NCBI GenBank assembly: GCA_027315165.1
Contig: DAHUYN010000001.1
Coordinates: forward strand, 186,001 to 250,000
Length of the DNA: 64,000 nucleotides
DNA from: Thermoplasmata archaeon
GTDB lineage: Archaea; Thermoplasmatota; Thermoplasmata; Lutacidiplasmatales; UBA184
Direction of reading: 5' to 3'
The notes under the pieces were generated by a model, which saw only the letters and a list, made by a program, of their open reading frames with translations, was not told where the DNA came from and ran no database searches. Position numbers and translations under genes: made by a program. Below are positions 20,907-40,510 of this stretch, piece by piece; the stretch's first letter is position 1; every line of letters begins with the position of its first letter.

Positions 20907-22151
20907 ATGAGTGCAAGTCCGAACACGACGAACGACAGCCTGAGCGCGCCCCGTGCGCGCTCCGCGCGACGCAGGAGCATGGGCCTCGTGGCCGCCATCG
21001 CCATCGCGGTCGTCCTGCTGCTCGTGGGGCTCGGCGGCGGCTACGCGCTGGGCAACTACCTCGGGTCGAGGTCGTCCAACTCGAGCAGCACGTCGGGATC
21101 GACGAGCTACACGATCTCGGAGACCGGGTCGAGCCTGATCTACCCGCTGATGCAGCTCTGGGGACCGAACTTCACGAAGCTCTACCCGAACGTCCAGGTC
21201 TCCCCGCAGTCGACGGGGAGCGGCACGGGGATCTCGAGCGCCGAGTCCGGGACCGTCGACATCGGCGGGACCGACGCCTACCTGCTCCCCTCGACCGCCG
21301 CCAACTACAGCCTGATCAACGTCCCGGTGGCGATCTCCTCGCAGTTGGTCTACTACAACCTCCCCGGGATCAGCGCGCACATCAACCTCAACGGGACGGT
21401 GCTCGCGATGATCTACTCCGGGAAGATCACGAACTGGAACGACCCGATGATCCAGGCGGCGAACCCGAGCGTCTCGCTCCCGAACCTCGCGATCGTCCCG
21501 ATCCACCGGCAGGACGGAAGCGGTGACACGTTCATGTTCACGTCGATGTGTTACATGTCGTGGTCCGGCTGGACCTACGGCTACGGGACCAGCGTGACGT
21601 GGCTCTCGAGCTCCCCCTCGGCGAGCGGGAACGCGGGCATGGTGACGACCCTCTCGCACACGACCGGTGGGATCGCCTACATCGGGATCAGCTACGAGTC
21701 CGAGGCCGCCTCGTCCGGACTCACCTACGCCGCGCTGGGCACGCAGGCCGCGAACCTGAACGGCACCAACCCCGCCAACTACGCGCTGCCGACCACCGCC
21801 AACATCAGCGCGGACGCCTCGCTCGGCCTCGCGAACCTGGCGCCGGGGAGCGTCGCGGTGAGCCTGATCCTCGGGGGCGTCCCGGGCGCGACCAACCTCC
21901 AGCTCGGCAAGGGCGGAACGATGCCCGCGGCCGGAACGACGCCGTACCCCGACACGAACCTCGAGTACACGCTGATCAAGACGAACCCCTCGGACGCCTC
22001 GAAGCAGAAGTGGGTCGTCGCGTTCCTCGAGTGGGCGCTGGCGTACGGGAACAGCGCGACGTACATGAACCAGGTACACTTCCTGCCCCTGACGCCGGCC
22101 GTGGTCGGCTATGACATGCAGGCGCTGCAGGCCGTGACGGTGAGCGCGTAG
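20907..22151 (+). CDS. pstS: Phosphate ABC transporter, substrate-binding protein
   Basis: This 414-residue extracytoplasmic phosphate-binding protein has a cytoplasmic basic N-terminus, a membrane anchor at about 25-50 (LVAAIAIAVVLLLVGLGGGYALG), a Ser-rich linker, and the PstS fold. Signatures are SETGSSLIYPLMQLWGPNF, SPQSTGSGTGISS, DIGGTDAYL and the phosphate loop HRQDGSGDTFMFT. Lacking a lipobox, it is held by the N-terminal transmembrane helix. It is the first gene of the operon, with a strong Shine-Dalgarno sequence. Confidence 0.95.
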   Translation: MSASPNTTNDSLSAPRARSARRRSMGLVAAIAIAVVLLLVGLGGGYALGNYLGSRSSNSSSTSGSTSYTISETGSSLIYPLMQLWGPNFTKLYPNVQVSPQSTGSGTGISSAESGTVDIGGTDAYLLPSTAANYSLINVPVAISSQLVYYNLPGISAHINLNGTVLAMIYSGKITNWNDPMIQAANPSVSLPNLAIVPIHRQDGSGDTFMFTSMCYMSWSGWTYGYGTSVTWLSSSPSASGNAGMVTTLSHTTGGIAYIGISYESEAASSGLTYAALGTQAANLNGTNPANYALPTTANISADASLGLANLAPGSVAVSLILGGVPGATNLQLGKGGTMPAAGTTPYPDTNLEYTLIKTNPSDASKQKWVVAFLEWALAYGNSATYMNQVHFLPLTPAVVGYDMQALQAVTVSA

Positions 22152-22202
22152 TCGAGAGGACAGAACGAGAGGACCAACCCACTCCGGGAAGCAGGGAATC
22201 GG

Positions 22203-23207
22203 ATGGCCACGGCTGACCCGGCGCTCGCCGCCTCCCCGCCTGCTTCCCCTACCCCGCCCGCCTGGGACCGGTACAAGCTCCTCACCTGGCTCGGCTCGCC
22301 GCTCGCCCTGATCCCCCTCCTGGCGCTCCTCGCCGTCGCGCTCGCCATCGTTTCCTCGGGCGACCTCACGCTGCTCCTGCGGGGCGACTTCTGGTCGTTG
22401 ACCTTCAACTGGAACCCGCTCTATCCGGACCAGGCCGCCTGGGCGTTCCCGCTGTACCTGCTCGGCACCGCGATCACCGCCGGCCTCGCGCTCCTCTTCG
22501 CGACCCTCCTGAGCCTCGCCCTCGCCATCTCGCTCACGGCCTACCTCCCCGGCTGGCTCGGCCGCTCCTTGGCGACCCTCACGAACCTGCTCGCCGGGAT
22601 CCCGAGCGTCGTCTACGGGATCTGGGGCTACGTCGTGCTGGCCCCCTACTTCGGGCTCACGCTGCAGCCGACCCTGCGCTCCTACCTCGCGTGGCTCCCG
22701 TTCTTCGGCGGCCCGGCCGCGGCGGCCGCGCCGGGCACCGGGGTCCTGCTCGCCGTCCTCATCCTCACGGTGATGATCGTCCCGTTGACGACGGCGATCA
22801 TCCGGGACTCCCTCGCGAACGTCCCCTCCGCCGTCCTCGAGGCGAGCCTCGCGCTCGGCGCCACACAGTGGGAGACGATGCGCCGGGTCCGCCTGCGGGT
22901 GGCGCGCCGTGGCGTCATGGGCGCGGTGTTCCTCGGCTTCGGTCGCGCGGTCGGGGAGAGCGTCGCCGTCGCGATGGTCGTCGGCGGTCAGACCCAGATC
23001 CCCCCGAGCATCTACTCGGGGACGACGACGGTCTCCGCCTTCCTTCTCTACCAGCAGGACTCGGCCTTCCAGTACGCGGCGCTGCTCCACGCGCTCGTCG
23101 ACTTCGCGCTCGTCCTCCTGCTGATCACGCTCTTTTTCAACTTCCTCGCCCAGCGCGCCACGGGCGAGCGCGGGGCCGTCGGCCAGACCAGCGCCGCGGG
23201 GCTCTGA
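22203..23207 (+). CDS. pstC: Phosphate ABC transporter permease PstC
   Basis: This 334-residue permease has about six membrane helices: [15 protein letters not shown], the EAA-type cytoplasmic loop [17 protein letters not shown], and [16 protein letters not shown]. These are typical of PstC. It lies 51 bases after pstS and its stop overlaps the pstA start (TGATG). Confidence 0.93.
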
Positions 23208-24115
23208 TGGCGGCGGCGACCCCCTCGAACCCCGCCTCCGACCTCTTGGGCCCGGCGGACGGACGCCTCCGCTACCGTCTCTGGGTCGACCGGGTCGTGC
23301 GATGGGGGCTGCCCCTCACCTTCCTGCTCGTGCTCGTCCCGCTGTTCGACCTGCTCTACTGGGTCTCGGCGAAGGCGCTCCCGACGTTCACGTGGGCGAC
23401 GATCTCGACGAACCCGGTCGGCTTCGGAGGAGGCCTGTGGGCGCCGATCACCGGGACCTTCCTCCTGATCACGATCGCGACGGCGATCTCGGGGGGCCTC
23501 GGGATCCTCGCCGGCATGTACACCGCGGAGTTCGCCCCGCCGCCCGTGGCCCGGCTCGCCCGGCTGGCCGGGAACCTGCTCGCGGGGGTCCCGGCGATCG
23601 TCGTCGGATACTTCGGCTACTTCCTCCTGGTCCTCTACACCCACTGGGGCTTCACGACGCTCGCCGGCGCGATCACGCTGAGCGTGTTCATGCTCCCCTA
23701 CGTCTACCGGGTCTGCGACCTCTCGTTCTCGAGCGTCCCCCGGGACCAGCGCGAGGCCGCGCTCGCCGCGGGCGCGACCCCACGCCAGTACCTTCTCCGG
23801 GTGGCGTTCCCCATCGCCTTCCCCTCGGTGCTCACCGGCGTCTTCCTCGCGATGGCGATCGGGCTCGGGGAGACGGCGCCGCTCGTCCTCACCGCGGGCT
23901 GGTCGAACTCGCCCTCGACGGGCCTGTTGAGCACCACGAGCTATCTCACGGGCGTCGTCTACCAGAACTATCAATTCCCCGACACGCTCGGGCACCTCGT
24001 GACGCTCGCCTTCCAGGCCGCGTTCCTGCTCGTCGTCATCGTCCTCGTGCTGAACATCCTCGTCCAGGTCATCGCGGGCCGGTACCGGCGCCGGCTGCAG
24101 GGGCTGTTCTCGTGA
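23207..24115 (+). CDS. pstA: Phosphate ABC transporter permease PstA
   Basis: This 302-residue permease paired with PstC starts at the ATG overlapping the pstC TGA. Family features are [19 protein letters not shown], the EAA loop [21 protein letters not shown] and [18 protein letters not shown]. The GTG start of pstB overlaps its stop. Confidence 0.93.
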
Positions 24116-24960
24116 GCGACGCGCCCGAGCCCCCTCCGACACCCACCCCGACCGACCCGGCCGCGGGCGCGCCGCCGTCGGCGACGCTCCGCGAGGCGCC
24201 GGTCCCGCACCCGGTGCTCCTCGCCGTGAGGCACCTCTTCGTCCGGGCGCCCAAGCGCGTCCTCCTCGACGACATCTCCCTCGAGCTCAACGACCGCGAG
24301 GTGACGGCGATCATCGGGCCGAGCGGCTGCGGCAAGACGACGTTCATCCGGACCCTGAACCGGATGGTCGAGGTCTCGCCCGGCCTCCGGGTCGAGGGCT
24401 CGGTCCGCTACAAGGGCCAGGAGATCTACGGCGCGGGGATCGACCCGGTCCAGGTCCGACGGCGGATCGGCATGGTCTTCCAGCGGCCCATCGTCTTCCC
24501 GATGTCGATCTACGAGAACGTCGCCTTCGGGCTCCGCCTCGAGGGGACCGACGAGGACGAGGTCGAGGCGACGGTCGAGCGCTCGCTCAAGCGCGCCGGC
24601 CTCTGGCGCGAGGTCGGCGACAGCCTCGAGGCGCCGGCGCTCCAGCTCTCGGGGGGCCAGCAGCAGCGCCTGTGCATCGCGCGGGCCCTCGCCACCGGTC
24701 CGCGGGTGCTCTTGATGGACGAGCCGACGGCGAGCCTGGACCCGGTCGGCACGCAGAAGATCGAGGACCTCCTCTTCGAGCTGAAGCACGAGTACTCCGT
24801 CGTGATCGTCACGCACAACATGCAGCAGGCGGCGCGCGTCGCCGACCGGACCGCGTTCTTCTACGGCGGGAAGCTCGTCGAGGTCGACGAGACGGCCCGA
24901 CTGTTCGAGACGCCCCGGGAGCGCCTGACCGAGCAGTACATCACGGGAAGGTTCGGATGA
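24112..24960 (+). CDS. pstB: Phosphate ABC transporter ATPase PstB
   Basis: This 282-residue ABC ATPase that powers PstCA starts with GTG at 24112 within the pstA stop. A Pro-rich ~35-residue N-terminal extension precedes the fold. It has Walker A GPSGCGKT, the Q-loop [11 protein letters not shown], signature [15 protein letters not shown], Walker [13 protein letters not shown] and the H-loop [16 protein letters not shown] and the ending QYITGRFG are PstB-specific. Confidence 0.96.
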
Positions 24961-25622
24961 CGCCACCGGAGCAGCGGAGGGACCTCGCGGAGAGCCTCGA
25001 GCGCCTCGCCGAGTCGATGGGCTCGATGTTCGAGCTGAGCCACCTCGCGCTCGAGGGCGCGCTCCGGGCGCTCGCGGGCGAGAACGGAGGCTCTGCGGAA
25101 GCGGTCCTCACGCTCGACCGGGAGCTCTACGGGCTCAAGGCCCAGGTCGTCATGGGGTGCGTCGAGCTCCTCGCGCTGCAGGCCCCGGTCGCGAGGGACC
25201 TGCGCGTCGTCACGGGGGACCTCGAGATCGCGAGCGACCTCGATCGCGTCGGGCGCTACTCGAAGGACATCGTCGAGGCCGTCCACGCGCTCCCCGCCGG
25301 CGAGCCGAACGCCTTCTCGGCGCTCCCCGCGCTGCGGGAGATGGGGACGCTCACCGAGCGGATGCTGACCACCGTCAGCGAGGCCTACCTCCACGGGGAC
25401 GCCGAGGCGGTCCGGCACATCGAGGAGGCGGACAACTCCGTCGACGCGCTCCACGAGCAGATCTTCCACGAGCTGGTCGCGCGGATCTCCGACAAGCGCC
25501 TCGCGGCGGGGACCGGCGCGTCGCTGATCCTCGTCAACCGCTACCTCGAGCGGCTCGCCGACCACGCGGTGAACATCGGCGGACACGTCGAGTACATGGT
25601 CACCGGCGTCCGGCCCCGGTAG
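24957..25622 (+). CDS. phoU: Phosphate uptake regulator PhoU
   Basis: This 221-residue all-helical protein has two PhoU three-helix repeats. The conserved metal-binding segments are [20 protein letters not shown] and [19 protein letters not shown]. PhoU couples Pst activity to phosphate signalling. ATGA overlap with pstB makes it the last gene of the operon. It overlaps the convergent HTH/ferritin-like gene by 23 bases. Confidence 0.94.
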
Positions 25623-27471: not shown

Positions 27472-28776
27472 ATGTACGGAGCGGCGACCCTGGTCCTCGC
27501 GGCGACGCTCGCGGCCGTGATCGTGCGGCAGCTCGCCTTCCGAGGTCCGCCGGTGTGGCTCCTCTTCGTCCTCGGGGCCGTCGCGATGGTCGCGACGGGG
27601 GCGCTCCCGCCCTCGGGGGCCCTCGAGGCGGTCGTCGCGAACGCGCCCGTACCGTTGTTCCTCCTCGCGCTGTTCGTCCTCGCGGGCGGCCTCGAGGAGG
27701 CCGGGGCGCTCGAGCGGCTCGCCTCGTGGGTCGTCGCGAGGGCGCGCGCGCCCCGCGACGTGCCGTTCCTGCTGTTCCTCACCTTCGGGGCGCTCTCGGC
27801 GTTCGTCGTGAACGACGCGGTCGTCCTCGTCGGGGTCCCCGTCGCCCTCGCGGTGGCGCGGCGGCTCGGGCGCTCGCCGCGGTCGTTGCTGCTGACCCTG
27901 ATGATGGCCGTCACGGTCGGGAGCGTGGCGACGCCGTTCGGCAACCCCCAGAACCTTCTCGTCTCGCTCGAGAGCGGGGTCGTCTCGCCCGTGGCGACGT
28001 TCGCGCGGTTCCTGGCGATCCCGACGGGCCTCTCGCTCCTCGCGGGGGCGCTCTACGTGCGGCGACGCTTCGCCCGCGAGACGCCGCTCGACCCCCACGC
28101 GGCTCCGGGGGCCCCGTCCGGGCCCGCCGCGCTCGCGTCGACCCCGCTCTCGGTCCGCCTCCGTCTCCACCCGACCCTCGTGATCTTCCCGGTGACGATC
28201 GCCGCGATCGTCGCGAGTGACCTCGCGGGCGGCTTCGGCGTCGGGCCCCGGGTGCCGCTCTATGCGATCGCGCTCGTCGGCGCCTCCGCGTCGCTCCTGC
28301 TGACGCCGGCCCGGGCCCGGCTCGTCGCGCGCGTGGACGTTCCGATCCTCGTGCTCTTCGTGGCGCTGTTCGTGGTCGTCGCCGGGGCGGTCGCGGGGGG
28401 CGTCCTCGTGCCTCTCGGTCGCGCGCTCGCGGTGCCCGGCCCCGGGGACGCGTTGCCGGGGGTCGCCGCGATCGTGCTCCAGAGCCTCGTCGGCTCCCAG
28501 CTCGTCAGCAACGTACCGTGGGTCGCGCTGCAGCTCCCGCTGCTGCGGGGTCTCGGCTATGGGGGCGGGACCCCGCTGGCCTGGATGGCGCTCGCGGGCG
28601 GGAGCACGCTCGCGGGGAACCTCACGCTCCTCGGGGCGGCGAGCAACCTCATCGTCGTCGAGCGGGCGGAGCGGGCCGGCCACCGGCTGGGACTCGGCGA
28701 GTTCGTCCGCACCGCGCTGCCGGTGGCCGCGATCTCGGTGTCGATCCTGCTCGCGTGTCTATGGGCCGGGCTCTGA
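27472..28776 (+). CDS. ArsB/SLC13-type anion permease
   Basis: This 434-residue polytopic protein of the ion transporter superfamily has two inverted halves, with VNDAVVLVGVP and TVGSVATPFGNPQNLLVS in the first and LVSNVPWVALQLP and AGNLTLLGAASNLIVVERA in the second. These SxxxNPQN/AASN pairs match ArsB and related arsenite, sulfate or carboxylate permeases. Substrate cannot be told from sequence. TTTTGTAGAGGG about 40 bases upstream may be its promoter. The 3' end overlaps the convergent IleRS-like gene by 18 bases. Confidence 0.8.
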   Translation: MYGAATLVLAATLAAVIVRQLAFRGPPVWLLFVLGAVAMVATGALPPSGALEAVVANAPVPLFLLALFVLAGGLEEAGALERLASWVVARARAPRDVPFLLFLTFGALSAFVVNDAVVLVGVPVALAVARRLGRSPRSLLLTLMMAVTVGSVATPFGNPQNLLVSLESGVVSPVATFARFLAIPTGLSLLAGALYVRRRFARETPLDPHAAPGAPSGPAALASTPLSVRLRLHPTLVIFPVTIAAIVASDLAGGFGVGPRVPLYAIALVGASASLLLTPARARLVARVDVPILVLFVALFVVVAGAVAGGVLVPLGRALAVPGPGDALPGVAAIVLQSLVGSQLVSNVPWVALQLPLLRGLGYGGGTPLAWMALAGGSTLAGNLTLLGAASNLIVVERAERAGHRLGLGEFVRTALPVAAISVSILLACLWAGL

Positions 28777-31700
28777 GGCGCCGGCCGCGCGGGGCCGAGG
28801 CTCTCGCCGGAACGAGCTCTCGAGCTCCGTCGAGCTCGCCGGGTCCAGCAGGGTCGGGTTGAGGGGGAGCCAGGCGCGCGCGTCGCGGACCCGGAGCTCG
28901 GCCTCGAGCTCCTCGAGGAAGCGCCGGGTCTTGGCGAGCCCGTGGATGCGCACGAGGTACTCGACCCCCTCGAGGTAGACGGCGGTCACGTTCCGCTCCT
29001 TGAGCACGCGGCGGAGCAGCGCGAGGAGCCCGTCGAGGTCGGAGGGCCGCACCGAGCCGTCCCGGCCCGCGTTCGAGAGCCAGTACACGTCCACGTCGCG
29101 CGCCCCGAGGTAGGCCCGGAGCCGATCGGGGAACTCCCGGCTGATGCAGAGCCCCCGGTGGCCCGCGCCCGTGGTCTCGAGGAACGAGCTCCAGGCGTCG
29201 TCCGCACTGGCCCCCGGGCAGACCTCGAGGCCCGGGGCCGGCCCGGAGGCGGTCGCGAGGACGGTCGCCGCGGTCGGGGGCGGCACCGGCCCGGGCGCGT
29301 CGGCCGACGCCGGCGGGGCGATCCTGGGCTCGGGGACGAGGGTCGGCGCCGGGCGCTCGACGGTCACGACCGACGGGGGCGTCACGGCCGGCGGGCTCGG
29401 GATCGTCGGAGCCACCAACGCCGCGAGAGCGATCGTCGGAGCCACCGGCGCCGCGAGAGCGATCGGCGGGGCCGGCGCCCTCGGGGGATCCGCCGGTCCG
29501 GGGGTCGGCGCGACGGCCACCGCGGGGACCGACGCCGGGGGACCTTGGGAGGGGCGAGGGGCCGGTGCGGGGGGTGGCGCGAGCGGGCGCTCGGGCACGT
29601 CCCCTCCGAAATGCCGCACGATCTCCGCGGCCACGGCGCCGCCGAAGCCGGGGATCGCGGAGAGCTGCTCGTAGGGCGCGCTCGCGATCTCCTCGAAGGA
29701 CCGGAGGCCGGCCTCCCACGCGGCCCCCGCCTTGGCGGGACCGAGCAGGGGGCGTCCGAGCTCCCGATCGAACCGCTCCACCGTCCGCCGCACGGACTCG
29801 GAGCGGAGCTGTCGCGACTGGTCCTCGAGGGCCATCGCGTCGATCTCCGAGCTCAGCGCCGCGAGCGGTCGGAGCCGGGGCGCTCGGGTCCGGCGCCGGG
29901 TCGTCTTGGCTCGGGCGCGCACGGCGAGCCCGGGGGCCCAGACGTGCCAGCGCTCCCCTCGCCCGCTCCGTCCCGTGAGCGTCTCGTCGTCGGGGAAGCT
30001 CGCCTCGGGCCCGGCGAGCTCGACCTCACGCCCCCCGAGCCACTCCGAGAGGGCGGGAGCGCCACGCGCGAGGTCCGCCGCGAGAGCCCCCTTCGCGACG
30101 ACGACGACGCGGTCGACCGCGGACGGGGCCGCGGAGCCCTCGAGTCGTCGACGCAGCTCCCGGGAGAACCGAAGGCCGTCCGGCGTCGTCAGGGGCGCAC
30201 GCAGGGTCGCGGACGCACCGTGGTCCTGCGGGAGCCGGAGGAGAAGCTCCCCGAGCGGCCAGCCCACCGGGACGACGTCGTCGGGGAGCTCCTCGGTGAC
30301 CTCGACCATCGACGGGAGGATCGGAAGCGTGTGGCCCTCGAGGGCGACCCGGAGCGTGCCGGCCGCGAGCGCCTCGCGGACCTTGCGGCCGTTCATCCCC
30401 TCGAGGAGGTGGACGATGCGCCGGGGCTGCGCGGGGTAGGCGCGCTGGATCTCCTCGGGAACGGGCCGGACCGAGACGACGCGTCCGTCCCAGGGCCGCG
30501 AAGGACTCGAGATCGTGACCTCGGCGACGCCCGAGATCCTCGCGACGACCTCGGCGCTCGTCCGCAGCGTCTCCGCCGCCGCCTCGTCGCGCGGCGCCAA
30601 GACGATCGACAAGAGTCCCACGTCGTCGGCGAGCCCGAGCTCGCGACGGGCGGGTCCGAGGGCTTTGGGGACGGTTCGCCAGAGCGCGAACGCCGCGTCG
30701 AGATGAGCGTCGGGCGCCGGGATCGCGGGCTCGGCGGGGCTTCCCTCGAAGAGGCTCGTCCCCTCGACGCCCAGCGCCTGGTGCAGCGCCTCCATCGTGA
30801 ACGGTCCGATCGGCGCGTAGAGGCGGGTCCAGCGCTCGAGGAGATAGCCGAGCAGCCGCAGGACGACGCGTCGCGCCTCCGGTGGCGAGGCGGGCCCGAG
30901 GCGATCGCGGACCCAGGGGAGGTAGGCCCCCCTCAGGTCGTTCTCCAGGAACGCCCAGAGCCGCGCGTGCACCGAGGGGATGTCCGAGCGCGCCCACGAG
31001 TCCCGGACCTCGGCTTCGACCCCGTCGAACCGCGAGAGGAGCGCACGATCCTCGACGGCGAGCTCCGCGAGCGCCGGGCGGTCCGTCCCGGACGGGCGCA
31101 CCGTCGCCTCGCCCGCCGCGGCCGCGAGGACCTCACGACAGACCTCCCAGAGCTTGTGGAGCCGACGCTCCTCCTCCCGCCGCCGGGCGAGCAGGCCGGC
31201 CGGCCCGCCCCGGGGGCTCTGCGCGATCCGGAGCAGCGTGGCCCTCAGGCCGTCCTGGGCGCCTTCGAGCAGCGCGGAAAGCTCCTCGCCCCCGGCGACC
31301 GTCGGGAGCGGCGTGAGCCGCGCTTCTCCGGGGGCGGCTCCGACCGCGGCCATCGCGACGACCTGGTGGACGAGCGCCGGGCCGAGGCTGCGTTCGGGCA
31401 GGTAGAGGTGGACCTCGGTTCCCGGGGGAAGGGGCGCGAGCGCGACCCACTGGCTGACCGCTTCGACGAAGGCGGGGAGGAGCCGGTGTCGCTCCGGTCG
31501 AGGAGTACCCCCGCAGGGGCAGCTCGCCGGGCCGGGAGGCGCCGCGAGACGGCCACAGTCGGGGCACTCGCTCAGCTCGACGGCGTGGTCGGCCGGCGCC
31601 CGCTCGTCGACGTCGGACGCCGGCCAGGGGATCGACGGGTGGAACGGCGAGGGGACGCCGGGCGGCCGGAGCCGCTCGAGGAGCCCGCCGAGGGCGCCGG

Positions 31701-32859
31701 GAAGCCGGGTGGGGTCGAGGCACCAGGCCCGTCCGGGAGCCCACAGGAGCGCCCCGCCGCAGAGCGTGCACACCGGTAGCCCGTGCTCTCCCTCGGTCTG
31801 GCGGAAGAGCGCGCCCGACTCCCCGAGGTCCCGCAGCAGGAACGCCTCGGCCATGTCGACGGGCAGGCCGACGTACTTGTGGGTGAGCCCGCCAACGAGC
31901 TCGCCCTTCGTGTTGACGACGGGCCCGGCGGAGACCCGTGCGGCCTCGGCGACGGTGAAGTCTCGAGGGCCGTGGCTGGGGGCGATCGCGACCGCCCCCG
32001 AGCCCTCCTCGACGATCTCCTCGGAGGCGACGATCGTGCCGCCGGGCGCGGGGAGCTCGGCGAGGGCGGGGAACTCGGTCTCGAGAGGATGGCGGTAGCG
32101 GCGTCCGGCGAGGTCGCTTCCCGGCCGTTCTTCGAGGACCTCGGGGGCGGGCCGGACCGGCCCCCCCCAGAGCCGGCTCAGCGCCGATCGCTCGACCCAG
32201 AGGAGCTCCTCGGCGTCGCGATCGCGAACGCGGACGGCGACGTACGGCCGGCCCGGGTGCACCGCGACGACGGGCGAGCCGAGGAGCTTCCACAACGCGT
32301 CGGTCCAGACGAGCAGCGAGGCCCCGGCGGGCTCTCCCTCGAGGCGATAGCGGACGAGGTAGGAGGGGGCCGAGCGCGTCTCGTAGAGGACCGTCTGGGG
32401 GGTCCGGGGCGTGCGGCACGTCGGGCAGCAGAGCATCGGGCCCTCGCGCGCCCCGAGCACGCCGAGCTCGGCGAGCGTCGCCATCGCTCGAGCGAGGCGG
32501 GCCGTGGGAGCGAGCGACTCGGCGGATCTCGCTTCGCCGCCTCCGACCCACAGACCGAGCTTGGCGAGGAGCGGGCCGAGGTCCTCGGGGCTCCGCTCAC
32601 CGGCGCGGAGGACGAGCGGCGAGAGGATCCGACGTCCCTCCGAGAGGGAGCGACGAGCCCCGGCGTCGGCGCGCACCGCGCGCAGGAGGGCCGCGAGGAC
32701 CCCCTCGCTCGTCGACAGTGCGGCGGCGAGATGCACGGCGGCGCCGCCCGGCGCCGGGCTCGTCGGAGCCTCCGGCGGGGGAAGATGGAGACCGGCCCAG
32801 AGCTGTCGGGTCTCGGCCTCGACGCTCTCGGACACGAAGCGGGCAGGGAAGGTCCGCAT
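28759..32859 (-). CDS. Catalytically degenerate IleRS-like protein fused to HhH and DUF835
   Basis: This 1366-residue protein follows the isoleucyl-tRNA synthetase layout. It has a CP1 editing-like domain (about 155-345), with SLLVWTDALWKLLGSPVVAV for the usual WTTTPWTLPSN and GSGAVAIAPSHGPRDF for GTGAVHIAPAHGEDD. Next are KYVGLPV and Cys pairs 364/367 and 432/435, then an anticodon-binding-like helical region (about 565-700) and an IleRS-type C-terminal region ending near 870. The HIGH motif is absent: the N-terminus begins a shortened, scrambled Rossmann region. KMSKS is also absent; TVAGGEEL stands in its place. Downstream are an HhH motif (SAIPGFGGAVAAEIVRHFGG, about 1067-1086), an Ala/Pro linker with 10-residue repeats, and a DUF835 domain (about 1222-1350). 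It cannot aminoacylate by the known mechanism; an editing, tRNA-binding or regulatory role is inferred. Confidence 0.8.
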   Translation of the reverse strand: MRTFPARFVSESVEAETRQLWAGLHLPPPEAPTSPAPGGAAVHLAAALSTSEGVLAALLRAVRADAGARRSLSEGRRILSPLVLRAGERSPEDLGPLLAKLGLWVGGGEARSAESLAPTARLARAMATLAELGVLGAREGPMLCCPTCRTPRTPQTVLYETRSAPSYLVRYRLEGEPAGASLLVWTDALWKLLGSPVVAVHPGRPYVAVRVRDRDAEELLWVERSALSRLWGGPVRPAPEVLEERPGSDLAGRRYRHPLETEFPALAELPAPGGTIVASEEIVEEGSGAVAIAPSHGPRDFTVAEAARVSAGPVVNTKGELVGGLTHKYVGLPVDMAEAFLLRDLGESGALFRQTEGEHGLPVCTLCGGALLWAPGRAWCLDPTRLPGALGGLLERLRPPGVPSPFHPSIPWPASDVDERAPADHAVELSECPDCGRLAAPPGPASCPCGGTPRPERHRLLPAFVEAVSQWVALAPLPPGTEVHLYLPERSLGPALVHQVVAMAAVGAAPGEARLTPLPTVAGGEELSALLEGAQDGLRATLLRIAQSPRGGPAGLLARRREEERRLHKLWEVCREVLAAAAGEATVRPSGTDRPALAELAVEDRALLSRFDGVEAEVRDSWARSDIPSVHARLWAFLENDLRGAYLPWVRDRLGPASPPEARRVVLRLLGYLLERWTRLYAPIGPFTMEALHQALGVEGTSLFEGSPAEPAIPAPDAHLDAAFALWRTVPKALGPARRELGLADDVGLLSIVLAPRDEAAAETLRTSAEVVARISGVAEVTISSPSRPWDGRVVSVRPVPEEIQRAYPAQPRRIVHLLEGMNGRKVREALAAGTLRVALEGHTLPILPSMVEVTEELPDDVVPVGWPLGELLLRLPQDHGASATLRAPLTTPDGLRFSRELRRRLEGSAAPSAVDRVVVVAKGALAADLARGAPALSEWLGGREVELAGPEASFPDDETLTGRSGRGERWHVWAPGLAVRARAKTTRRRTRAPRLRPLAALSSEIDAMALEDQSRQLRSESVRRTVERFDRELGRPLLGPAKAGAAWEAGLRSFEEIASAPYEQLSAIPGFGGAVAAEIVRHFGGDVPERPLAPPPAPAPRPSQGPPASVPAVAVAPTPGPADPPRAPAPPIALAAPVAPTIALAALVAPTIPSPPAVTPPSVVTVERPAPTLVPEPRIAPPASADAPGPVPPPTAATVLATASGPAPGLEVCPGASADDAWSSFLETTGAGHRGLCISREFPDRLRAYLGARDVDVYWLSNAGRDGSVRPSDLDGLLALLRRVLKERNVTAVYLEGVEYLVRIHGLAKTRRFLEELEAELRVRDARAWLPLNPTLLDPASSTELESSFRREPRPRAAGASEPGP
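29401..29470. repeat. 30-base tandem repeat in the linker of the IleRS-like gene
   Basis: Units 29401-29430 and 29431-29460 differ at two positions and a third partial unit begins at 29461. They encode the ten-residue repeat AIALAA(P/L)VAPT of the flexible linker. Slippage could vary the linker length between strains. Confidence 0.7.
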
Positions 32860-33416: not shown

Positions 33417-33803
33417 ATGGCGTGGACGCAGGCCGAGGTCCGCGAGCTGAAGGAAGGGCGGTACATGCTCATCGAAGAGGAGCCGTGCCGCATCCTCAGC
33501 ATCCAGACCTCCAAACCGGGCAAGCATGGAGAGGCCAAGGCCCGGATCGACGCCGTCGGCCTGTTCGACGGCTCGAAGCGCAGCGTCGTCTACCCGGTGA
33601 AGCACAAGGTCCAGGTCCCGATGATCGGGAAGCGGCGCGGCCAGGTGCTTTCGCTCACCGACACCGAGGTCCAGCTGATGGACCTCGAGAACTACGAGAC
33701 GTTCTCCCTTCCCCTGGACGCGGAGCTCAAGGGGCAGCTCTCGCCCGGCGGCGAGGTCGACTACCTCGACGCGATGGGGAAGCGCCGGATCACGAAGGCC
33801 TAG
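33417..33803 (+). CDS. Translation factor aIF5A
   Basis: This 128-residue factor relieves ribosome stalling at polyproline and similar sites. Hypusine-site loop [14 protein letters not shown] places the modified lysine at Lys36. The C-terminal OB domain ([17 protein letters not shown]) completes the protein. Pro-rich linkers are common in this genome, which fits a need for the factor. The ATG is about 14 bases after the predicted transcription start from GGTTAAGAAG at 33372-33381. Confidence 0.97.
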
Positions 33804-33946: not shown

Positions 33947-36900
33947 ATGGGCGGTCTCCCCTCCTCTCGGCTCACGCGAATCCTCCAGGAGAAGGCGGAG
34001 CTCCTCAAGCGCCAGCGTCACTCCTCCGAGCAGGTGCTGCACGCCGTCGAGGAGCAGGCCGAGCGTCTCAACGAGGTCGGCGTCACGATCCCCGAGCTCA
34101 AGGAGCGTCTGAGCGCCCTCGAGGCCCTCGCGCGTCGCGCGGACTGGGAACTCCTCGAGACCCAGGCGAACGCGCTCGTCGAGCTCATCGAGAAGTCGGG
34201 CCAGGCCCCCTTCGAGGAGAGAGTCCAGGAGACGCTGCGACGCCTCGACCGGCTCTCGCGCACGGGGCTCACGCTCCCCGCGCCGCACCGCGCCTTCGCC
34301 GAGGCGCTCCGCTCGCCGGCGGCGGGCGAGCCGTGGACCGCCTCCCTCGCCGCGCTCGTCGACCTCGAGAAGATCGTCCGTGCCTCCGAGTCCGAGTACT
34401 CCTCGACGCTCCGGGCGCGCGTCCGCGCGCTCGCGGAGTGGGCGGGGGACGAGCGGGAGCGCGCCACGGCGCTCGACGGCCGGCTCCGGGCGACCCTCGA
34501 GTCGATGCGGGAGGCCGAGGAGCCGAAGGTCCTCGAGAAGGTCACCGAGCTCGCGACCTCGGACCTCCCCAAGGCCGTCGCACGCCGCGCACGGGCCCGC
34601 GAGGGAGCGACCGCGCTGCGCGCCGCCGCGCAGGACCTCGGCGTCACGACCGAGCCGATCGACAGTGCGCTCGTCGCCGACGGCGAGGCGCTCGCCCTGG
34701 ACTGGCCGACCTCCGTCGAGCGCGTCGAGGCGACGAGCGGGCAGCTCGCCGAGAGCCTGCGCGAGAAGGTCGCCTCGACGATCGACTCGCTCCGCAGCAC
34801 GCTCGAGTCGCTCCGCGAGTACGGGGTCGACCCCGCCGAGCCGCTCGTCATCCTCGGAGAGGTCCAGGGGTCGGTCCCGAGCGCCGGGCCCACCGAGATC
34901 CCGAAGCTCCTCGAGCGCGCGCGGAGCGCGACCGAGGAGCCCGTCGTCTCGATCGTCGCCGGCCTGCTCGACGTCGTCCGGCCGAAGCTCGTCGAGGCCC
35001 GTCGCCTGGGCCGGGATGCGAGCGAGGTCTTCGCCGCGATGAACCGGGCCCGGGAAGCCCTCCGCCTCCGCATCTACAGCGAGGCGCTCGCCGCCAGCCA
35101 GGAGGCGATCGACCGCGTCGGCGGGCTGACGCAGGACCTCGACGCGGCCCGCCAGGAGGCCGACTCCCTCGGCGAGCTCCTCGAGCGGCTCAAGGGGACG
35201 CGGTTCGACACGACGCCGTTCGAAGAGCGGCTCGACCGGGTCCGCGGGCTCTTGGCCCGCCTCGAGCTCGAGCCGGCGCGTCGCCTCCTCACCGAGACGC
35301 TGCAGTCCCTCGGGAGCCAGGCGGCGACGGCGTTCACCGAGCGGATCGCCTCGCTCGAGCGGCTGCTGCCGATGGCTCGAGAGCGGGGCTTCCTCCCCGA
35401 CGGGGCCGAGGAGCAGCTTAGGGGCGTGGCCGCTGCGCTCGAGGACGGGGAGATCGCCGACGCGAGGGAGCGCCTCGCGAGCGTCGAGACCCGCCTACGG
35501 ACCGCCGCGAGCCCGTACGTCTCCCGCCGGGTCGAGGAGCTCGAGCGGGGCTTCGAGGACATTCCGGACGAGTCGCTCGTGACGCCCGTGCGCCGGCTGC
35601 TCGCCGAGGCCGACGTGAACCTCCGCGTCAAGGCCGACCTTCCGGCCTCTCTCGAGACGCTGAAGCGCGCCGAGAAGGAGTTCACGGCGGTGTTCGCCGC
35701 GCACGCCTCCTCGCTCGTCGAGATGCTCGAGGAGGAGCGCCGGACCCTCGAGGCGATGGGCGGGGCCGGGGACGAGATCCAGCGGCAGATCGACGAGGTC
35801 CAGCAGATCTTCAACATGGGGGACTTCGTCAAGGCGTCGAAGGCCTCTCAAGAGATCCGGAGCCGCGCGCACCAGCAGCAGCTCCTTCGGAGCGAGGAGG
35901 CCGTCTCGCATGCGAAGCTCGCCCTCGTCGAGCTCGGGAAGATGGGCGTCGACGCGCAGAGCGTCCGCACGACCCTCGACCAGGCCGCGGACGCGTCGCG
36001 GGCGCACCGCTACGCGGAGGCCTATCGGCTCGCCGTCGCGACCCAGGAGTCGGCGCTCCGGCTCAAGGGGAAGGCGCAGGCGATCCTGGACGAGCTCCAG
36101 TCGGCGAACCTCCTGATCGGCGAGCTCGCGAAGGGGGGCGTCGTCGTCGAGGCGTACCGCGAGAAGGCCCGTCTCGCGCAGGCCGCCTACCAGGCGCTCG
36201 ACCTCGAGGGGGCCAAGGACGGTCTCGACATCCTTCGAGCGCTGCTCCGGGCCGAGCAGGCGAACGCCGAGGCCCGCCGGCTGCTCGAGGAGTCCGCGCT
36301 CCTCTTCGAGGATGCCGGGCGGATGTCGCTCCCCGTCGAGGCGTTCGCGACGCGCCTCGCCGACGGCCGCACCGCGCTCGGGGAGGGCCGCTCCGTCGAG
36401 GCCCTGCAGGGGGCCCGGGCCCTCCATCTCGACCTCGTCGAGCTCGTCAAGCCCGTCCTCTTCGAGCACCTGCGGAACGTCGAGCGCGACCTCGACGTCG
36501 CGCGCGCGGTGAACCTCGAGATCTCTCCGATCGCCGAGCTGCTCGGCGAGGCGCGGCGACGGCTCGCGCTCCCCGTCCCCGCCGGCGTGACCGAGCTGCT
36601 GGACACCGCCCGTTCCCGTCTCGTCGAGGTGCGGGGCCTGCACGAGCACGCCGAGCGGTCCGTCCGCCGAAGCTCCGAGGCCCTCGCCGAGGCCGAGCTC
36701 CTCCACGCCGCGCCGCCGGCGGCCCGCGAGCGGCTCGCGGAGGTCGAGCGCGCCCTCAAGGCGCACGAGTACGCGAAGGTCATCGAGGGGGCCGCCGCGG
36801 TCGAGCGCGAGACGCTCCAGGCGACCTACCAGCACGTCTCCAAGAGCCTCGCGGGCTTCCAGGGCCTCGTCGTCCGCGCGCGGCGCGACGGGAGCGACGC

Positions 36901-38416
36901 CTCCGTCGCCGAGAACCTGCTCCAGCAGGCGCGACAGGCGCTCGAGGAGGGACGCCCGATGGAGGCGCTCCAGCTCGCGGGCCGCAGCGAGAGCGAGGTC
37001 GAGCGGGTCGGCCTCCAGCTGGAGATCGCGCAGGGGTCGCTGCGCACCGTCGAGGAGAAGCTCCGCGAGAGCGAGGAGGCGGGCGTCCGCGCCCCGGTCG
37101 CGCGCGAGAAGGTCGACGAGGCGCGCGCGGCGTTCGGCGACCGGCTCTACCCGATCGTCCTCGAGCTCGCGATCGACGCCTCGGACTCGCTCGCGCTCGC
37201 TCGAGAGAACCACCGGCGCTCGCGCGAGGCGCTCGACTCGGCCGACCGTCAGGTCAAGGAGGGGATGGTCCTCGGCGCGGACATGACGGAGGTCGTGACG
37301 CTCCTCGACGCCGCCCGCGCCTCCCATCAGGGGGGCGAGTACCCCGACGCGGTCCGCAAGGCGCGCGACACGGCGGAGCGGGCCCGATGGGCCGTCGAGC
37401 GTCTCTACGCCGGCGCCCTGACCGACGTCCGCCGGCTCTTCGACTCCGCGCGCTCGGCCGGGATCGAGGACGAGGCGGTCGGCGGGGGCCGGACGGTCGA
37501 AGAGATCGAAGAGGCCCTCAAGGTCAGCGACTGGAAGCGGGCCGCCGAGCTCCTCCAACGCGCCCGCGACGGCGCCACGAGCGGGCTCAACGCGCGCTAC
37601 GACGCGCGCCTCGCCGAGCTCGAGGCGCTCTACCGCGACGACCCGTCACCGCCGAGCTCGAGCGAGGCCACGTTCCGCACGGACGCGAGGTCGCGCGCGA
37701 GCGTCGAGCGCGAGCAGGGGAACTTCGGCGTGGCCCTCGAGCTCCTCGGCGGTGAGGCCGCCCGCCTCCGGGAGGTGCGCCGGTCCGCGCTCGCCGCGCG
37801 GCTTGTCGCGTTCAAGGACCGGCTCTGGATCGGCGAGAAGCTCGGGCTCGACACGACCCCCGTGATGGAGGTGTTCAGCGAGGCGCAGCTCGCGCTCGAC
37901 TCGGGCCAGCTCGAGCGGGTCCCCGGCCTCGTCGTCGATGCGGAGCAGCGCCTCGTCAAGCTCGTCGCGCCCCGGCTCGAGGAGAGGGCGCGGGAGACGC
38001 AGACGGAGCTCGTCTTCGCGAAGGACGGCCTCCACGTCGCGGTCGACGACGTCGCCGAGCAGCTCCGCGCGGCGACCGAGCGCTCCCGTTCGGGCGCCGT
38101 CATCGAGGCCGCTCGCGTGGTCCTCGAGGCCGGCGAGGAGCTGAACCGGCGGAAGGCGCTCCACCGCGAGCTGATGAACCTGCACTATCTGATCGACGCC
38201 GCGCTCGGCCGGGCCTCGGAGCGGCACCTCGATACGACGGAGGCGCGCAAGCTGCTCGACGAGTCGATCCGCGCTCGCGCGACCGACTACAACTCCGCGC
38301 TCGAGAAGGCCCGCGCGGCCCTCAAGCTGCTACAGGGCAGCCTCGCGGGGACCGAGCCGTCGTCGCCGACGGCGTTCTGGCCGTTCCGGCGCCCGCCGTC
38401 GGGCGGCGGTCCCTAG
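33947..38416 (+). CDS. Giant helical-repeat (TPR/coiled-coil-like) protein
   Basis: This 1489-residue, almost wholly helical, highly charged protein has no membrane segment or signal peptide. It consists of at least a dozen degenerate ~80-100-residue units. Each has a pattern like LLxxARxALxxGRxxEALxLA followed by a G-V/D-D loop (GMGVDAQSV, GKGGVVVEAY, RDGSDASVA, GMVLGADMTEV, KLGLDTTPVME). The C-terminus ends in a short Pro/Ser tail. A scaffold or structural-maintenance role is possible; no catalytic motif is seen. CTATTATAT at 33845-33853 is the likely promoter, with a leader of about 70 bases. Confidence 0.75.
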   Translation: MGGLPSSRLTRILQEKAELLKRQRHSSEQVLHAVEEQAERLNEVGVTIPELKERLSALEALARRADWELLETQANALVELIEKSGQAPFEERVQETLRRLDRLSRTGLTLPAPHRAFAEALRSPAAGEPWTASLAALVDLEKIVRASESEYSSTLRARVRALAEWAGDERERATALDGRLRATLESMREAEEPKVLEKVTELATSDLPKAVARRARAREGATALRAAAQDLGVTTEPIDSALVADGEALALDWPTSVERVEATSGQLAESLREKVASTIDSLRSTLESLREYGVDPAEPLVILGEVQGSVPSAGPTEIPKLLERARSATEEPVVSIVAGLLDVVRPKLVEARRLGRDASEVFAAMNRAREALRLRIYSEALAASQEAIDRVGGLTQDLDAARQEADSLGELLERLKGTRFDTTPFEERLDRVRGLLARLELEPARRLLTETLQSLGSQAATAFTERIASLERLLPMARERGFLPDGAEEQLRGVAAALEDGEIADARERLASVETRLRTAASPYVSRRVEELERGFEDIPDESLVTPVRRLLAEADVNLRVKADLPASLETLKRAEKEFTAVFAAHASSLVEMLEEERRTLEAMGGAGDEIQRQIDEVQQIFNMGDFVKASKASQEIRSRAHQQQLLRSEEAVSHAKLALVELGKMGVDAQSVRTTLDQAADASRAHRYAEAYRLAVATQESALRLKGKAQAILDELQSANLLIGELAKGGVVVEAYREKARLAQAAYQALDLEGAKDGLDILRALLRAEQANAEARRLLEESALLFEDAGRMSLPVEAFATRLADGRTALGEGRSVEALQGARALHLDLVELVKPVLFEHLRNVERDLDVARAVNLEISPIAELLGEARRRLALPVPAGVTELLDTARSRLVEVRGLHEHAERSVRRSSEALAEAELLHAAPPAARERLAEVERALKAHEYAKVIEGAAAVERETLQATYQHVSKSLAGFQGLVVRARRDGSDASVAENLLQQARQALEEGRPMEALQLAGRSESEVERVGLQLEIAQGSLRTVEEKLRESEEAGVRAPVAREKVDEARAAFGDRLYPIVLELAIDASDSLALARENHRRSREALDSADRQVKEGMVLGADMTEVVTLLDAARASHQGGEYPDAVRKARDTAERARWAVERLYAGALTDVRRLFDSARSAGIEDEAVGGGRTVEEIEEALKVSDWKRAAELLQRARDGATSGLNARYDARLAELEALYRDDPSPPSSSEATFRTDARSRASVEREQGNFGVALELLGGEAARLREVRRSALAARLVAFKDRLWIGEKLGLDTTPVMEVFSEAQLALDSGQLERVPGLVVDAEQRLVKLVAPRLEERARETQTELVFAKDGLHVAVDDVAEQLRAATERSRSGAVIEAARVVLEAGEELNRRKALHRELMNLHYLIDAALGRASERHLDTTEARKLLDESIRARATDYNSALEKARAALKLLQGSLAGTEPSSPTAFWPFRRPPSGGGP

Positions 38417-38871
38417 CCGGTGAGCCCGGCGCCGGTGCCGGCGCCCATCGGGGGCATGCCGGGGATCCCCCGGGGCGGCCCGAGGGGGAGGCGGTCGTAC
38501 TCGACCGAGTGCTTGATCCCGCGGCGCCGCAGGAGCTGGCTCACCTGCTCGGTGATCTGGACGATCTCCTGGCAGCGCAAGGGCTTGGAGAAGTAGAACT
38601 CGGGGTGCCTCGGCTCGCTCAGCGGGAAGATGAGGCGCATCCCGAACGGCTCGGAGCGGTTGTAGCCCGCCGGCTTGCGGTCGGAGCGGAGGTCCCGGAG
38701 GTTCTCCTCGAGGAGGACGTCGGGCAGGAGCGGCTCGGTCTCCTTGACGAACGGCCGGTTCGCCTCGAGGACCTTCTTGTGGATCTCGGGGTAGACGCGG
38801 ACGAGGTCCTTGAAGGTGCGTCGGCCCTCGAGCAGGATGTGGCCGCTGCGGGCCTTTACGGGGGGTGTCAC
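38413..38871 (-). CDS. Conserved-looking hypothetical protein
   Basis: This 152-residue protein starts MTPPVKARSGHILLEGRRTF. The body (about 15-130) has balanced composition with likely alpha/beta character, including FGMRLIFPLSEPRHPEFYFS and QEIVQITEQVSQLLRRRGIK. It ends in a Gly/Pro/Met-rich tail (GIPGMPPMGAGTGAGLTG). Good codon bias supports a real gene, but I do not recognise the family. It overlaps the convergent repeat-protein gene by four bases. Confidence 0.6.
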   Translation of the reverse strand: MTPPVKARSGHILLEGRRTFKDLVRVYPEIHKKVLEANRPFVKETEPLLPDVLLEENLRDLRSDRKPAGYNRSEPFGMRLIFPLSEPRHPEFYFSKPLRCQEIVQITEQVSQLLRRRGIKHSVEYDRLPLGPPRGIPGMPPMGAGTGAGLTG

Positions 38872-40403: not shown

Positions 40404-40510
40404 GCTCCCGTAGTCTAGTGGTCAAGGATAGAGGCCTCTCGAGCCTCTGACGCGGGTTCAAATCGGCCGGGGGGACCGACCCGGCCGGGAAACTCCCGCC
40501 GGGAGCACCA
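40404..40510 (+). tRNA. tRNA-Glu (CTC) with probable T-loop intron
   Basis: Acceptor strands GCTCCCG (40404-40410) and CGGGAGC (40500-40506) pair fully, followed by discriminator A and an encoded CCA (40508-40510). The anticodon stem is GAGGC/GCCTC with loop CTCTCGA, giving anticodon CTC. The T-stem GCGGG (40452-40456) pairs with CCCGC (40495-40499), but 31 extra bases separate TTCAAAT from CCCGC. Removing them leaves a normal 76-base tRNA. The gene lies between the RnfD-like and FixC genes. Confidence 0.85.
40463..40493 (+). other. Predicted 31-base tRNA intron at about position 59/60
   Basis: The insert contains the strong 8-bp hairpin CGGCCGGG / CCCGGCCG (40464-40471 and 40480-40487). Exact splice points may shift by one base (40464-40494), because T precedes C at both ends. 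T-loop introns are known in archaeal tRNAs and are removed by the splicing endonuclease at bulge-helix-bulge structures. The flanking bulges here are relaxed rather than canonical. Confidence 0.6.

Follow-up and report, generated by a model that had tools for sequence, protein, structure and literature searches.

An isoleucyl-tRNA synthetase paralogue lacking its synthetic and editing motifs appears to be retained under selection in Thermoplasmata

In a 64,000-nucleotide stretch of a Thermoplasmata archaeon genome (hereafter the window; assembly GCA_027315165.1, contig DAHUYN010000001.1, positions 186,001 to 250,000) we describe a gene for an isoleucyl-tRNA synthetase (IleRS) derivative fused to helix-hairpin-helix (HhH) and DUF835 domains, which we refer to as pseudo-IleRS. 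Our analysis suggests that this soil archaeon keeps an apparently catalytically dead second synthetase copy under strong selection, and that this copy has taken on a new, probably regulatory, job. The genome (G000), of the Lutacidiplasmatales kind within the class Thermoplasmata, totals 2.04 Mb over 61 contigs at 94% completeness; the 57 related loci include one from Candidatus Lutacidiplasma silvani. The gene is laid out as follows:

28759..32859, minus strand: whole pseudo-IleRS-HhH-DUF835 gene, one uninterrupted open-reading frame of 1366 aa plus stop
32500..32859, minus strand: what remains of the Rossmann (synthetic) domain's first half (residues 1-120), without HIGH
31705..32370, minus strand: CP1 (editing) domain, residues 164-385
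32299..32301, minus strand: Asp187, in the place of editing-triad Thr229, 52/52 readable rows
31960..31962, minus strand: Asp300, equivalent of IleRS Asp328, 52/52 readable rows
31180..31704, minus strand: second half of the Rossmann domain, residues 386-560, without KMSKS, with newly fixed R458, R491 and P494
30625..31050, minus strand: anticodon-binding domain Anticodon_1 (PF08264), residues 604-745, 47.2 bits against a cut-off of 25.1
29890..30624, minus strand: C-terminal junction region, residues 746-990
29614..29745, minus strand: helix-hairpin-helix HHH_5 (PF14520), residues 1039-1082, 31.3 bits against a gathering score of 27
29185..29589, minus strand: Pro/Ala-rich linker, residues about 1091-1225, weakly constrained
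28819..29166, minus strand: DUF835 (PF05763), residues 1232-1347, 54.2 bits against a gathering score of 33.1

The first-pass annotation, made from the sequence by itself, had proposed an IleRS-derived protein of this span and length, without stating its strand, with HhH and DUF835 domains on a repeat linker. The frame is indeed open, on the minus strand, both added domains exceed their curated Pfam cut-offs, and the linker holds a 30-bp tandem repeat (29401-29473, 2.4 copies). The proposed ancestry is agreed upon by the NCBIfam ileS profile (TIGR00392, E 6.9e-28, 97.3 bits, far under its cut-off of 621.4), by sequence matches among solved structures, where all 19 of the best are IleRS, and by an AlphaFold2 model of residues 1-1090 built with 41 relatives (pLDDT 85.5, pTM 0.76), which has the IleRS fold. 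The 20 best Foldseek matches to this model are IleRS or ValRS, headed by Priestia megaterium IleRS2 (8c9d, E 7.6e-44), so the fold search did not produce the non-synthetase fold that, according to the first-pass annotation, would refute the proposal. The synthetase core PF00133 had no Pfam match in the window protein at E-values up to 10, and DUF5915, which Pfam recognises in L055, an active relative, was not called in the window protein's junction region. In the C-terminal model the HhH and DUF835 domains are confident and the linker is of low confidence. The DUF835 model best matches FlaH (4yds, E 2.8e-5) and then KaiC, a RecA-like fold, and the Walker A pattern GxxxxGK[ST] was found nowhere in the window protein. 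The label iKaiC, given to DUF835 in the accessible part of an earlier study, is consistent with a KaiC/FlaH-like fold (PMC5847659).

Both synthetic signatures are missing, as the first-pass annotation had said: HIGH is gone from the window protein and from all 18 readable fused-gene rows of its family f1 (19 rows), and KMSKS from the window protein and 19 of 19 f1 rows. Sequence correction might have brought either motif back, and no hidden HIGH or KMSKS turned up; as the frame is open and the f1 relatives show the same losses, we reject a sequencing or frame error in the window genome as their source. Counterparts had also been claimed for WTTTPW, GTGAVHIAPAHG and KYKGL; these are real in position yet altered, reading WTDALW (residues 185-190), GSGAVAIAPSHG (286-297) and KYVGL (328-332) respectively. 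The editing site of the window protein has a broken Thr triad (WTDALW), and Ala stands at the position of its catalytic His. Throughout the 52 readable rows the catalytic His is replaced (by Pro in 30, Thr in 11, Ala in seven, Ile in two, Gly and Leu in one each), the Thr229 position is Asp and the Thr230 position is mostly Ala (35), with Trp185, Asp187, Trp190, His296 and Asp300 present in every row. We take the Asp187 site to be that of editing-triad Thr229 in T. thermophilus numbering and the Asp300 site to be that of IleRS Asp328, whose role is presumably amino-group recognition; a literature search on these IleRS editing residue names found no paper. An acidic residue at the third Thr occurs in 12 of 20 dead copies from other families, and motif-bearing fused copies have zero acids at the triad Thr positions across 48 readable rows.

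A normal IleRS elsewhere in the genome, which the first-pass annotation had thought worth looking for, is found on contig C3 of G000 as a 1004-aa open frame (763.6 bits) with HIGH, KMSKS, WTTTPW and editing His all intact; its nearest solved structure is Priestia IleRS2, which makes it IleRS2-like. Both IleRS copies were fetched for 37 genomes, of which 33 were clear, and exactly one copy keeps HIGH and KMSKS in 33 of these 33, which are related genomes and therefore not independent events. The fused copy lost KMSKS (in 23 cases also HIGH) and the stand-alone copy is intact in 28 of them; the other five, all of family f5, have an intact fused copy and a stand-alone copy that lost KMSKS and the editing His and keeps HIGH. 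In this count we take as intact the stand-alone copy of G025, whose KISKS the strict pattern scores as lost, and, in agreement with that pattern, as lost the stand-alone copy of G216, whose KIEKS is borderline, since it also lacks the editing His and triad. The f5 loci concerned, in which it is the IleRS2-like stand-alone copy that decayed, are L088, L089, L253, L254 and L255. The fused copies of G037, G039, G049, G060 and G198 lost KMSKS and kept HIGH. Set aside were G053, which has masked stretches and a 'second' copy of fused type, and G184, G199 and G217 (f45), where the script's rule gives an intact fused copy and a lost second copy with GVHHAW for HIGH, a form that we take to occur in other working IleRS. 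In these last three genomes (L201/L258, L203/L257 and L200/L256) the fused synthetic motifs are present (LSKS) and the Thr triad is changed (WTSTPW, WASMPW and WTSRPW); in their second IleRS, AMHRSKGN replaces KMSKS and the editing site is intact. This arrangement might reflect either incipient decay or a division of labour between charging and editing.

The fused gene alone was fetched from 55 further genomes, where 37 copies carry both motifs, two have FSKS for MSKS (G194, G224), ten are dead and six are partial. It is the only IleRS found in 32 of the 37 motif-bearing genomes (30 without a second IleRS over a threshold of E 1e-150, under which a degenerate copy could be missed, plus G043 and G059 from another search), and the remaining five (G185, G200, G205, G220, G223) belong to f5 and contain a second copy, or part of one. 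Alongside the dead copies a second IleRS passes E 1e-150 in G211, G225, G244, G254, G266, G272 and G275, and is present as pieces in G188 and G201. G266 itself holds two dead fused-gene copies, L242 and L245.

The fusion is not peculiar to the pseudoenzyme, as fused IleRS is complete elsewhere in the class. Searching 60 relatives turned up long matches (34-42% identity) in 26 of the genus's 36 other genomes; in long frames throughout the class the matches were weaker and came in three parts, and these frames are IleRS with a C-terminal extension. For example, by Pfam the active relative L055 contains tRNA-synt_1, Anticodon_1, DUF5915, two HHH_5 stretches and DUF835, and it scores 968 bits against ileS. 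DUF835-like tails, sought with a small profile built from six members, were found on 43 of the 47 fused genes with synthetic motifs that were examined and on 33 of 38 dead ones, several of the misses being genes cut at contig or locus ends. Open frames longer than 1300 aa with an IleRS match are confined to the class among 127 sampled genomes of the phylum, length alone being no proof of fusion, and the fused region was detected at E 1e-90 in 81 of 151 class genomes that are 85% complete or more, an undercount as G129, G229, G238 and G269 carry the fused gene and were found later. The fusion is thus older than the decay, which the first-pass annotation did not foresee. Two stand-alone IleRS of about 1050 aa (G044 and G056; L072 and L067) are placed inside the fused clade, and seem to have lost their C-terminal extension.

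A quick tree with long branches, made from 71 rows of the anticodon and junction region, sets 66 fused-type rows (two of them unfused, from f8) apart from five stand-alone-type rows (SH-aLRT 99), and the same split appears in a separate comparison. The dead label requires two changes on the best tree, and the starred branches force only one; counting the f5 stand-alone copies, the sequences indicate at least two inactivations overall, in different genes. The inner branch of the window's family is the longest of the tree at 2.16 changes per column.

The dead copies evolve under purifying selection. Ratios of non-synonymous to synonymous substitution (dN/dS, NG86) are 0.075-0.232 in ten same-genus pairs, rough values because dS exceeds 0.9 in seven of them. 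The CP1 domain has dN/dS of 0.056-0.139, the lowest among the regions shown in six of ten pairs, DUF835 has 0.025-0.073 (three pairs) and the linker 0.225-0.526 (five pairs). CP1 is also the most conserved region in 53 rows including the window protein (mean 0.70); 38 of its 222 positions reach 97% or higher. When 54 dead rows (among which L011 duplicates L099) were compared with 37 active rows, 35 positions proved newly fixed: each reaches at least 97% in the dead genus family, and among active relatives 29 of them stand at no more than 10% and six are gaps. A further 56 fixed positions were common to both. Newly fixed residues (active residue in brackets) include R60 (N), A64 (K), D187 (T), P362 (G), P399 (W), R458 (D), R491 (T), P494 (W) and A606 (W), and eight cysteines are kept in dead and active rows alike (C145, C148, C364, C367, C432 at 98%, C435, C447 and C449). 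With due caution over the alignment, this pattern reads as changed function under selection rather than free decay.

Upstream of the gene lie two genes on the opposite strand:

33417..33803, plus strand: eIF5A gene, divergent neighbour of the pseudo-IleRS gene
33947..38416, plus strand: 1489-aa protein beside eIF5A, with no Pfam match over cut-off and no NCBIfam match

Among the 47 in-genus loci that extend 1.5 kb or more upstream, 45 have the divergent eIF5A gene, which lies more than 2 kb away in two of them, and the 1489-aa gene is present in 51 of 57 in-genus loci. Pseudo-IleRS itself was found in 14 of 20 sampled genus genomes (12 in a first search, G238 and G269 later), and the six genomes without it are also without the 1489-aa gene, which may reflect few losses. 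This link is loose, since G203, G221, G088 and G140, of other genera in the same family, keep the 1489-aa gene and pseudo-IleRS was not found there. Synteny with eIF5A as an old family feature is unsupported, with 0 of 18 loci outside the genus showing it. Another product of the window, a 152-aa protein (38413-38871) with no Pfam match over cut-off, is 73-76% identical in six related loci.

The explanation that we favour, and consider fairly probable, is that the enzyme, once replaced, stayed on as a regulator that carries a KaiC-like domain, has no catalytic activity and probably binds tRNA or another RNA. Its ancestor would be the vertically inherited archaeal-type IleRS of the class Thermoplasmata, often with C-terminal HhH and DUF835. 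A second, stand-alone IleRS2-like enzyme would have taken over tRNA-Ile charging, and only then would the old enzyme have lost its synthetic motifs and catalytic editing-site residues, presumably with its activity, whilst being retained. As the anticodon domain, junction and HhH are kept, the IleRS body may hold tRNA-Ile or another RNA; as two pockets are remodelled, a ligand is conceivable, and the CP1 pocket, where Asp187 is new and Asp300 and His296 remain, may accommodate a free amino acid or an aminoacyl group that it does not hydrolyse. The KaiC-like DUF835 could relay the state to a partner, as suggested by its fold and by its place in archaeal signalling proteins in the accessible part of PMC5847659. 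In a more specific form, in our opinion possible but unlikely, the protein would be a ligand-gated translation sensor: the editing pocket (Asp187, His296, Asp300) would capture an aminoacyl end or amino acid, the former adenylate pocket (Arg60, Arg458, Arg491) would bind an anionic ligand or RNA, and DUF835 would report to eIF5A or the translation machinery. In that case a replaced essential enzyme would have turned regulator, perhaps repeatedly within a single archaeal class.

Several observations weigh against this explanation. The gene is dispensable, being absent from six of 20 sampled genus genomes, and eIF5A was not within reach in 18 of 18 out-of-genus loci, some of which are on short contigs. 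The newly fixed residues depend on alignment over strongly diverged synthetic regions, and the Asp328 equivalent is kept in only ten of 20 dead copies of other families. G207 (94% complete) has a dead copy, and searching it at E 1e-30 gave no further IleRS, perhaps owing to an assembly gap. To our knowledge DUF835 has no known function, and the window protein's copy is the only one found in the 94% complete G000. This genome thus shows no clear sign of a signalling network built on DUF835, and the idea of DUF835 as one among its many signalling proteins is unsupported. Likewise G042 carries a dead fused gene (L049, 6061-10095, family f6) with a complete 1344-aa frame and without a DUF835-like tail, which leaves DUF835 as an always-retained part unsupported; by eye, L049 ends in further HhH-like repeats.

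Other explanations share much of this evidence. The first-pass annotation had suggested a free-standing editing factor, in which CP1 would still hydrolyse mischarged tRNA for the second IleRS, and the high conservation of CP1 and the retention of Asp300 and His296 in 52 of 52 rows are in keeping with this. In its classical sense it is nevertheless disfavoured and very unlikely, as the catalytic His is absent from all 52 rows, the Thr triad is broken with invariant Asp at Thr229 and mostly Ala (35) at Thr230, and the genome's stand-alone IleRS carries intact editing motifs itself. The same low dN/dS of CP1 (lowest in six of ten pairs), together with newly fixed positions in CP1 and the former synthetic region, would suit a remodelled enzyme performing new chemistry in the old synthetic or editing pocket (Asp187 with Asp300; Arg60, Arg458 and Arg491), but no catalytic motif was recognised, and we consider this reading quite unlikely.

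If the protein served, with no small-molecule ligand, as a scaffold for the active IleRS or for the ribosome/eIF5A machinery, or as a partner subunit of either, this would account for the divergent eIF5A at 45 of 47 loci and for the joint absence of pseudo-IleRS and its 1489-aa neighbour from six genomes; however, the synteny may stem from a shared promoter region, the six genomes may trace to few losses, and four genomes keep the 1489-aa gene where pseudo-IleRS was not found, so that a pure scaffold seems to us unlikely. A possible sensor or scaffold is the best surviving part of the first-pass proposal. That the gene is a relic heading for loss is extremely improbable: its long inner branch (2.16), its absence from six of 20 genus genomes, and the one stop codon crossed by each of five C-terminal matches, in G012, G015, G024, G030 and G033 (which may be the gene's end), would fit, but the low dN/dS and 35 newly fixed positions speak against a relic, and zero stops were found in 13 same-genus stretches (model of residues 600-1090).

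Closest in design are the active IleRS-HhH-DUF835 members (L055, L056, L057), which share the gene family, domain order and tree group of the window protein. In them HIGH and KMSKS are present and the editing site is intact; the window protein lacks all three. HisZ and SLIMP differ from the window protein in having other partners and in deriving from HisRS and SerRS, which are class II synthetases. They are likewise synthetase-derived, described as regulatory partners, HisZ without adenylation activity, in the accessible part of PMC9437257, and on that partial literature they and LeuRS-I of Sulfolobaceae are the nearest precedents. LeuRS-I, by the same portion of that source, is an archaeal synthetase paralogue retained beside a working enzyme, binds tRNA-Leu, is unable to aminoacylate and is critical for optimal growth; it differs in that it serves another amino acid and still makes leucyl-adenylate, and that portion mentions no DUF835 (PMC9437257). 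Bacterial IleRS1/IleRS2 pairs also place two IleRS types in one genome, but there the second copy is described as a mupirocin-resistant enzyme, whereas in Thermoplasmata one copy lost its synthetic motifs (PMC4861432, PMC9437257, as far as the accessible parts go). REC-DUF835 and REC-PAS-PAS-DUF835 proteins have the same C-terminal domain on response-regulator receivers, not on a synthetase (PMC5847659, accessible part). The main text of the Lutacidiplasmatales genome paper contains no tRNA synthetase, isoleucyl, aminoacyl or DUF (PMC9287336). An IleRS-DUF835 fusion is undescribed in the titles and abstract starts searched, a search that left most subscription journals and sequence-database annotations outside, and among the papers covered none joins isoleucyl-tRNA synthetase with Thermoplasmatota and a single one mentions DUF835.

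One class thus offers a natural series, from active fused IleRS through KMSKS-less, HIGH-bearing copies to the fully remodelled protein, with a working replacement present in every genome where both copies are clearly readable, and the fate of a replaced essential synthetase is therefore directly testable. As DUF835 sits on active and dead fused genes alike, an unstudied role of this domain is indicated. Elsewhere in the window, a tRNA-Glu (CTC) at 40404-40477 is the sole tRNA found, and 20907-25622 holds a phosphate-uptake-like operon with a binding protein and permease by Pfam and an ATPase and PhoU-like protein by eye.

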